64,000 bases of DNA, from contig NZ_JMPP01000029.1 of assembly GCF_000735435.1 (NCBI RefSeq), positions 53,648 through 117,647 on the forward strand. The letters are read 5' to 3'. The position numbers and the translations under genes are program-made. Below, piece after piece: positions 54,586-55,683 of this stretch; the first letter of the stretch is position 1; the number at the start of each line of letters is the position of its first letter. A model generated the notes under the pieces. It was not told where the DNA came from and made no database searches. It worked only from the letters and a program-made list of their open reading frames with translations. The DNA comes from Klebsiella planticola ATCC 33531 (lineage in GTDB: Bacteria; Pseudomonadota; Gammaproteobacteria; Enterobacterales; Enterobacteriaceae).

Positions 54586-55479
54586 GTGAATCGACGTCAT
54601 TTTCTGCTGTTAAGCGCGGCATCGCTGTGGGCGGCGGCACGTGCCGGGGCCAGCGATCGCCGGGATGAGGTGCTCAGCTTATGGCCTGCCGAACCGCCGG
54701 GGGGCGGCGGGCCATCCGGGGCACCGCGGCTCTCTGCGCGCGGCGCGCTCACTCATATTGTCCGGCCGCAGTTGGCGGTGTGGCGCCCGGCGCAACCCCG
54801 TGGTCATGGCGTACTGATTGCCGCCGGGGGCGGCTACCGGCGCATCGAAATGGCGAAAGAGGCCTGGCCTGCCGCGCGCTGGCTGACGGCACGCGGCTAT
54901 ACCGCCTACGTCCTGAGCTACCGGCTTCCCGGCGAAGGGTGGGGCGCCGGCGCGCTGGCGCCGTTGCAGGACGCCCAGCGGGCGCTGCGGTTGATTCGCG
55001 CGCGGGAAGAACAGGTCAGCCTGCTGGGGTTTTCCGCCGGCGGGCATTTGCTGGGTATGGCGGCCTGCCGGGCCGATTTTGCCGCTTATTCGCCGCAGGA
55101 TGCTCTCGATGACCATCCGGCTCGTGCCGATAAAGCCGCGCTGATTTATCCGATTATTTCGCTGATGTCGCCCTATAGCCATACCGCGACGCACCGGATG
55201 CTGGCGGGCGCCCATGCCTCGGAAGCGGTTGACCGCGCCTGGTCGGTGCAGACCTACGTCAATTCACAGACACCGCCCTGTTTTCTGGCCCAGGCGGAGG
55301 ATGATTCGGTGTCCGATCCGCATAACACCCTGATCATGGCCGCCGCCTGCCGACAGCATCAGGTGCCGGTCAGCCTCTATCGCTATGCCCGCGGTGGACA
55401 CGGTTTTGCCATGGGGCGTCCCGGTACGCCGACCGTCGAATGGCCGGAGCATTACGCGCGCTGGCTGAACGGGCGCTAA
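54586..55479 (+). CDS. Exported alpha/beta hydrolase (esterase/BD-FAE type)
   Basis: A 297-residue hydrolase with a signal-like start MNRRHFLLLSAASLW that resembles a twin-arginine (RRxFL) leader; export by Tat is possible. The nucleophile is Ser150 in GFSAGGHLLG, the acid is probably in AEDDSVSDP, and the histidine in GGHGFAMG, typical of xylan- or feruloyl-esterase-like enzymes. GTG 54586 follows TGAGGAGAACTG. It lies 200 bases before the Anbu operon, but the sigma-54 promoter in between suggests a separate unit. The substrate is unknown. Confidence 0.78.
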   Translation: MNRRHFLLLSAASLWAAARAGASDRRDEVLSLWPAEPPGGGGPSGAPRLSARGALTHIVRPQLAVWRPAQPRGHGVLIAAGGGYRRIEMAKEAWPAARWLTARGYTAYVLSYRLPGEGWGAGALAPLQDAQRALRLIRAREEQVSLLGFSAGGHLLGMAACRADFAAYSPQDALDDHPARADKAALIYPIISLMSPYSHTATHRMLAGAHASEAVDRAWSVQTYVNSQTPPCFLAQAEDDSVSDPHNTLIMAAACRQHQVPVSLYRYARGGHGFAMGRPGTPTVEWPEHYARWLNGR

Positions 55480-55505
55480 CCCTGATGGCGCAGGCGCGCG
55501 ATATT

Positions 55506-55522
55506 TGCTTCATGATGGTGCA
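55506..55522. promoter_or_regulatory. Candidate NtrC enhancer site
   Basis: TGCTTCATGATGGTGCA agrees with the glnA-type NtrC site TGCACTAAAATGGTGCA at 12 of 17 positions, with a perfect right half. It lies about 120-140 bp upstream of the expected start of the sigma-54 promoter, a usual enhancer distance. Further TTGCAC half-sites occur at 55560 and 55590. Confidence 0.6.
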
Positions 55523-55617
55523 AAACCGGCGTGGCATCGGCTATCGGGGTGATTGTTTTTTGCACAATAAAGCGGCGCATTGCGGGGAATTGCACTGGTC
55601 TCACGCCCTCTGCTACC

Positions 55618-55634
55618 TGGCATAATAAATGCTT
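55618..55634 (+). promoter_or_regulatory. Sigma-54 (RpoN) promoter of the Anbu operon
   Basis: TGGCATAATAAATGCTT keeps the invariant GG (55619-55620) and GC (55631-55632) separated by exactly ten bases, and TGGCA of the -24 element. Transcription would begin near 55643, giving a leader of about 40 bases with GGAGGA before ATG 55684. Confidence 0.72.
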
Positions 55635-55683
55635 ATCTCTTTGCGGGGTTACCCCAACGTGAGTATAACCGGAGGAGACGGCC

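Follow-up and report, generated by a model that had tools for sequence, protein, structure and literature searches.

The operon of the proteasome homologue Anbu in the 64-kb window (the whole stretch of DNA analysed, from a Raoultella-like bacterium) is preceded by a -24/-12 element and an NtrC-type dyad that very probably place it in the NtrC/sigma-54 nitrogen-starvation regulon. Judged from sequence comparison, a sigma-54 promoter in the leader is strongly supported, a role for NtrC as activator of that promoter is well supported, and nitrogen starvation is likely to switch the operon on. The first-pass annotation had placed Anbu in the nitrogen-starvation response and offered this as new; we infer that the placement is sound, but its newness was overstated, as work on Pseudomonas putida PP_2685-PP_2688 and a survey of COG3484 precede it. 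Publications on P. putida already report induction by nitrogen limitation, an assignment to NtrC and a promoter that responds; what is new is the predicted enterobacterial promoter and its conservation across Enterobacterales.

Pfam matches gave the order ATP-grasp, Alpha-E, transglutaminase, Anbu that defines an Anbu operon (Table 1). The ATP-grasp protein shares 100% identity with its Raoultella ornithinolytica counterpart (L031). Residues listed for Yersinia bercovieri Anbu, Thr1, Asp17 and Lys32(33), were all found in the window Anbu as Thr1, Asp17 and Lys32, numbered after Met removal (PMC6376114). The Anbu proteins of Y. bercovieri and P. aeruginosa are likewise proteasome homologues from a four-gene operon; the sections of the two papers drawn on here cite just the P. 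putida nitrogen result and describe no enterobacterial promoter (PMC5666114, PMC6376114), and the Y. bercovieri protein is reported there as having no peptidase or amidase activity found (PMC6376114).

Table 1. Features of the Anbu-operon leader and adjoining genes, in window positions.
Feature	Position	Strand	Basis or remark
Alpha/beta hydrolase gene	54586-55479		ORF list; adjoins leader upstream
Leader, intergenic, 204 bp	55480..55683	+	ORF list and sequence; alpha/beta hydrolase gene before, operon after
Putative NtrC-type dyad TGCTTCATGATGGTGCA, 12/14 fixed positions	55506..55522		Centre about -130
TTGCAC half-site, possible weak NtrC site	55560..55565	+	TTTTTTGCACA block in 5/6 rows of alignment A1; TTTTTTGTACA in Pluralibacter
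TTGCAC half-site, possible weak NtrC site	55590..55595	+	Kept in 5/6 rows of A1
-24/-12 element, sigma-54 type, TGGCATAATAAATGCTT	55618..55634	+	Exact consensus match; kept in 39/39 distinct close leaders
Predicted transcript start	55644 (first-pass annotation: 55643)	+	C of GC set as -12; from motif
Likely ribosome-binding site GGAGGAG	55671..55677	+	Sequence
Circularly permuted type 2 ATP-grasp protein, 479 aa	55684..57123	+	PF14403 E 2.6e-166, PF04174
Alpha-E protein, 309 aa	57117..58046	+	PF04168 E 8.5e-79
Transglutaminase-like protein, 271 aa	58043..58858	+	PF01841 E 1.1e-22, PF08379
Anbu proteasome homologue, 246 aa	58877..59617	+	PF00227 E 9.2e-08

The GG-N10-GC element claimed beforehand is present as TGGCATAATAAATGCTT, with GG at 55619-55620 and GC at 55631-55632 ten bases apart, and 49 bases lie between its end and the ATG (50 had been given). 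The sigma-54 consensus is taken as TGGCAY...TGCW, with GG and GC 10 apart. TGGCATAATAAATGCTT is the sole exact match to TGGCAYN6TGCWT in the window. A loose match to this pattern is meaningless, since those with at most two mismatches, of which the window holds 45 vs 66.9 by shuffling, are rarer than chance would give. Across the whole genome of 5,668,028 bases, exact matches to the stricter TGGCAYRN5TGCWT number 11, TGGCATAATAAATGCTT among them. One of the 11 precedes the P-II gene taken as glnK, and three precede genes that are, presumably, hycA-like, fdhF-like and gltI-like; further ones stand ahead of an aldehyde dehydrogenase, a transporter-like frame and an RpiR-like regulator. Another falls inside a long frame, and for the remaining two no frame of at least 80 aa starts within about 300 bp.

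A sigma-54-type sequence is also present at the 42 closest related loci examined. The wider comparison covered 182 leaders (at least 80 named-relative loci, 20 family genomes, 79 class genomes and 3 plasmid-collection records), the ATP-grasp gene being found in 20/149 family and 79/274 class genomes, our own included in both. An element was scored when at least 10/12 positions matched, at most 300 bp upstream of the gene or 30 bp into it. All 39 distinct leaders of an ATP-grasp gene at least 75% identical to that of the window carry it (shuffled, 2.2; reverse strand, 1), as do 41/46 at 60-75% identity with Anbu (shuffled, 3.5; reverse, 3) and 17/17 at 60-75% with Anbu unseen in the stretch (shuffled, 1.2; reverse, 0), at least 4.3 kb having been read from the ATP-grasp start at 16 of these 17 loci. 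Below 60% identity most leaders are without the element, which occurs in 27/72 lacking Anbu (shuffled, 3.8; reverse, 7) and, by an earlier 8-point rule, in 2/5 with Anbu. Among the 60-75% Anbu operons it is missing in Kushneria, Phytohalomonas, Keguizhuia, G404 and Burkholderia cenocepacia L164, and no GG-N10-GC was found in the Sinorhizobium meliloti pSymB leader (L153). Because the leaders share descent, these counts are not independent.

A first, stricter rule, in which GC at -12 was required, gave 26/46 in the 60-75% Anbu operons. Nineteen of the 20 failures were inspected (all but G404), and most share the element with GA for GC; the 12-point score asks for G alone at -12, was set after the failures had been viewed, and recovers 15/20. 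The 39/39 result is unchanged under both rules, and it is this result that argues for a sigma-54 promoter. As an observation in its own right, the form with TTGA for TTGC at -12 (TGGCAYRYTTCTTGATA type) is a conserved sigma-54-like element before the operon in L097, L101, L108 and others, mostly Oxalobacteraceae-type loci.

Six of the leaders were aligned (A1), and blocks are kept at the dyad, TTTTTTGCACA and CCTGGCATAATWAATGCTTATCTCT, with divergent DNA around them; the Pluralibacter row has CATACTTAATG, one position off CCTGGCATAATWAATGCTTATCTCT. A chance motif match in a freely diverging leader could appeal to how common loose matches are in the window, but with this footprint and with 39/39 against 2.2 expected, conservation goes beyond chance and that explanation is hardly credible. 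The 39/39 conservation also weighs against a sigma-70 type promoter or read-through driving the operon, with the sigma-54 match inert or minor, as does the sigma-70 scan, which found no such site on the + strand of the leader (55480..55683). IHF sites in the leader reach 2-mismatch matches at best.

The NtrC site, put at 12/17 in the first-pass annotation, corresponds to 12/14 on the fixed positions of TGCACCANNNTGGTGCA; its left half is poor, and it sits 112 bp upstream of the sigma-54 element. The two TTGCAC half-sites reported between dyad and element are there too. An NtrC dyad is expected some 80-150 bp upstream of the transcript start, a distance with which the centre at about -130 agrees, the dyad being weaker than the perfect one at glnA. 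In the other five rows of A1, dyads of 11-13/14 occupy the same place, so that in 6/6 rows the distance from dyad to element is 112 or 113 bp. At 12/14 or better, dyads were found in 22/39 leaders at 75% identity or more, 11/46 at 60-75% with Anbu and 7/17 at 60-75% without it, with 0.1 expected each; in 17/39 close leaders the dyad is weaker or absent. Helical phasing of the dyads had a best period of 10.85, reached by 0/500 random sets, and was given no weight because the leaders are related.

Calibration in the host genome points the same way. The dyad search returned 46 sites with at most two mismatches (reversed control pattern, 31) and the sigma-54-like search 174 (control, 129), and pairing the 46 dyads with 100 listed of the 174 sites yielded 7 promoters in which a dyad precedes an element by 20-250 bp, where 0.19 were expected. 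Two pairs fell outside this rule: in one, near a gltI-like gene, the layout is reversed, and in the other the distance is 307 bp. The seven are glnA, glnK, argT, nac, a purine/cytosine-type permease (a Transp_cyt_pur match), an RpiR-like regulator whose matches lie under curated cut-offs, and the Anbu operon; glnA, the P-II gene taken as glnK, argT and nac are NCBIfam equivalogs over cut-off. At these four promoters, as in the Anbu leader, the dyad stands 88-202 bp ahead of the -24/-12 element; glnA differs in that two dyads are listed there, including a perfect one, where the Anbu leader has a single 12/14 dyad and half-sites. The genome has a single rpoN (TIGR02395, 536.7 bits, over cut-off) and one ntrC gene over cut-off (TIGR01818, 812.8 bits); a GOGAT family search returned nothing useful. 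NtrC is put forward as activator on the strength of the dyads in 22/39 close leaders, the layout shared with glnA, glnK, argT and nac, and the presence of rpoN and ntrC. Since the ntrC model matches 46 places in the genome, eleven at E 8.4e-46 or better, other activators probably exist, and the 17 close leaders without a 12/14 dyad would suit a sigma-54 promoter driven by an enhancer-binding protein other than NtrC. Such a protein is nonetheless improbable here, given the constant dyad position in A1 and the way in which the genome's dyad-element pairs fall on glnA, glnK, argT and nac.

Published work bears on regulon membership in both directions. Anbu is described as up in nitrogen-limited P. 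putida, a result attributed to Hervas 2008 (PMC5666114, PMC6376114). In Table 2 of PMC7801951, PP_2686-2688 of the wild type rose 11.04 to 14.66-fold under nitrogen limitation and are assigned to NtrB/NtrC, with PP_2685 at just 1.12-fold; in the rpoN mutant PP_2686-2688 were still up 14.16, 16.02 and 19.61-fold, and urtA-D likewise 6.89 to 16.71-fold (PMC7801951). The persisting induction and the value for PP_2685 both count against membership of the regulon, as do the 17 close leaders without a 12/14 dyad, the poor left half of the window's own dyad and the operons that lack the element. In another data set PP2685, PP2686 and PP2687 were up 11.1, 6.6 and 7.1 in the first comparison (PMC3325844), and in a promoter study the PP_2688 promoter gave a 3.7-fold response, the PP_2685 and glnK promoter fragments being nitrogen-agnostic (PMC8050072). 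The operon of P. putida KT2440 shares with that of the window an ATP-grasp protein, a transglutaminase and a beta subunit resembling that of the 20S proteasome, and PP_2686-2688 are induced by nitrogen limitation; it differs in belonging to another order of bacteria, in the nitrogen-agnostic promoter fragment ahead of PP_2685, and in induction that survives loss of rpoN. That last point favours a sigma-70 promoter or read-through, as does the report that Anbu expression is constitutive, moderate and constant over several conditions (PMC5666114); set against 39/39 conserved elements, this alternative is still very improbable for the window.

B. cenocepacia I35_5080-83 are among the common sigma-54 and NtrC targets and share with the window the DUF404/407 (ATP-grasp), DUF403 (Alpha-E) and transglutaminase genes (PMC5491218); they differ in that Anbu is not named in that account, and the Anbu operon of the B. 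cenocepacia record L164 is without the element. A 2025 survey placed the COG3484 proteasome-type protease in a sigma-54-associated cluster enriched in the alpha, beta and gamma classes (PMC12316311), and ATP-grasp, Alpha-E and transglutaminase domains were linked to urea-metabolism domains in marine metagenomes (PMC3597751). The main text of a study of nitrogen-starved Klebsiella oxytoca does not name the operon proteins (PMC8381380), operon terms were not found in studies of A. baumannii NtrC, P. stutzeri NtrC and nitrogen-starved P. phymatum, and for cyanobacteria a literature search returned nothing that directly concerns nitrogen control of the operon. Among the open-licence PMC matches listed, none describes this promoter in Raoultella or Klebsiella.

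Under NtrC/sigma-54 control, phosphorylated NtrC would occupy the dyad when nitrogen is short, with help from the half-sites (55560 and 55590); across a DNA loop it would then open the sigma-54 RNA polymerase complex at the -24/-12 element, giving a transcript from near 55644 through ATP-grasp, Alpha-E, transglutaminase and Anbu. By the usual inference, ATP-grasp and Alpha-E would carry out a peptide-type ligation, the transglutaminase-like protein a transfer, and Anbu a cleavage, a scheme that would be compatible with nitrogen salvage or with a peptide modification specific to starvation. In tractable enteric bacteria, a conserved promoter of the nitrogen type suggests a growth condition for the search for Anbu's substrate.

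Across the phylum, the element may follow ATP-grasp more closely than Anbu. Anbu occurs in 145/398 Pseudomonadota genomes (our own included), and 60 of its loci were sampled, 42 with ATP-grasp on the same strand at most 4.6 kb upstream and 18 without. The element precedes 20/42 of the four-gene operons (1.8 expected; reverse strand, 1) and is lacking in 22/42; it was found in 2/18 leaders of the remaining Anbu genes (0.5 expected; reverse strand, 2) and in 4/84 control windows inside operons (4.6 expected). ATP-grasp was present in 18 of 19 genomes searched (the 18 non-operon ones and G372), with an element ahead of it in 10/18 (1.1 expected), 7 of the 10 coming from the single family code f110. 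Among the 18 loci, five proved to be linked after all: in G511 and G687 the two genes are divergent neighbours, in G590 they converge with about 2 kb between them, and in G445 and G532 they share a strand, ATP-grasp lying just past the stretch first taken; in G757 the two genes are about 13 kb apart. In G511 the element lies inside the adjacent Anbu gene, and in G648 and G609 it overlaps an assigned ATP-grasp start that is possibly misassigned. With the genes more than 200 kb apart or on separate contigs (12 genomes, assigned by eye), the element stands at ATP-grasp in 7/12, all of them f110, and at Anbu in 1/11, a count that leaves out the G372 leader.

This pattern, based mostly on one family, is a sign that the sigma-54 promoter tracks ATP-grasp/Alpha-E and not Anbu. 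The split of 10/18 vs 2/18, together with the 17/17 Anbu-less leaders, is the ground for a further, tentative reading, which we regard as possible but rather unlikely: nitrogen control would belong to the ATP-grasp/Alpha-E module, whose genes keep the promoter where Anbu is missing from the operon or lies elsewhere in the genome, the starvation activity would be a peptide-type ligation (modification or a storage peptide), and Anbu would be an optional hydrolase for trimming or recycling. If true, Anbu would not be a starvation protease. The cross-genome pattern in any case points to the ATP-grasp/Alpha-E pair as a possible regulated core. In L361 (G687) and L360 (G511), the divergent Anbu and ATP-grasp genes share a short intergenic stretch.

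The operon seems absent from complete E. coli genomes at near-match sensitivity, the leader and ATP-grasp gene having no near match among 5,426 of them. On the conjugative K. pneumoniae plasmid pKp_SB612_1 (L152, NZ_CP084831.1) the neighbourhood resembles that of the window: a TonB-type receptor, trehalase, hydrolase and the four Anbu-operon genes with their promoter are followed by ugpC and sugar-transport genes, and the AraC-type and MFS genes of the window are absent. Two records filed as plasmids, CP125156.1 and NZ_AP026896.1, are chromosome-sized (5.37 and 4.94 Mb). Within the leader itself, ATAATAAATGCTTAT at 55622-55636 forms ATA-N9-TAT over the sigma-54 core and, on the minus strand, is one mismatch from a NAC consensus. 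The ATA-N9-TAT frame is kept in 6/6 rows of A1, with a different register in leaders L035-L052, and NAC might dampen the Anbu-operon promoter.
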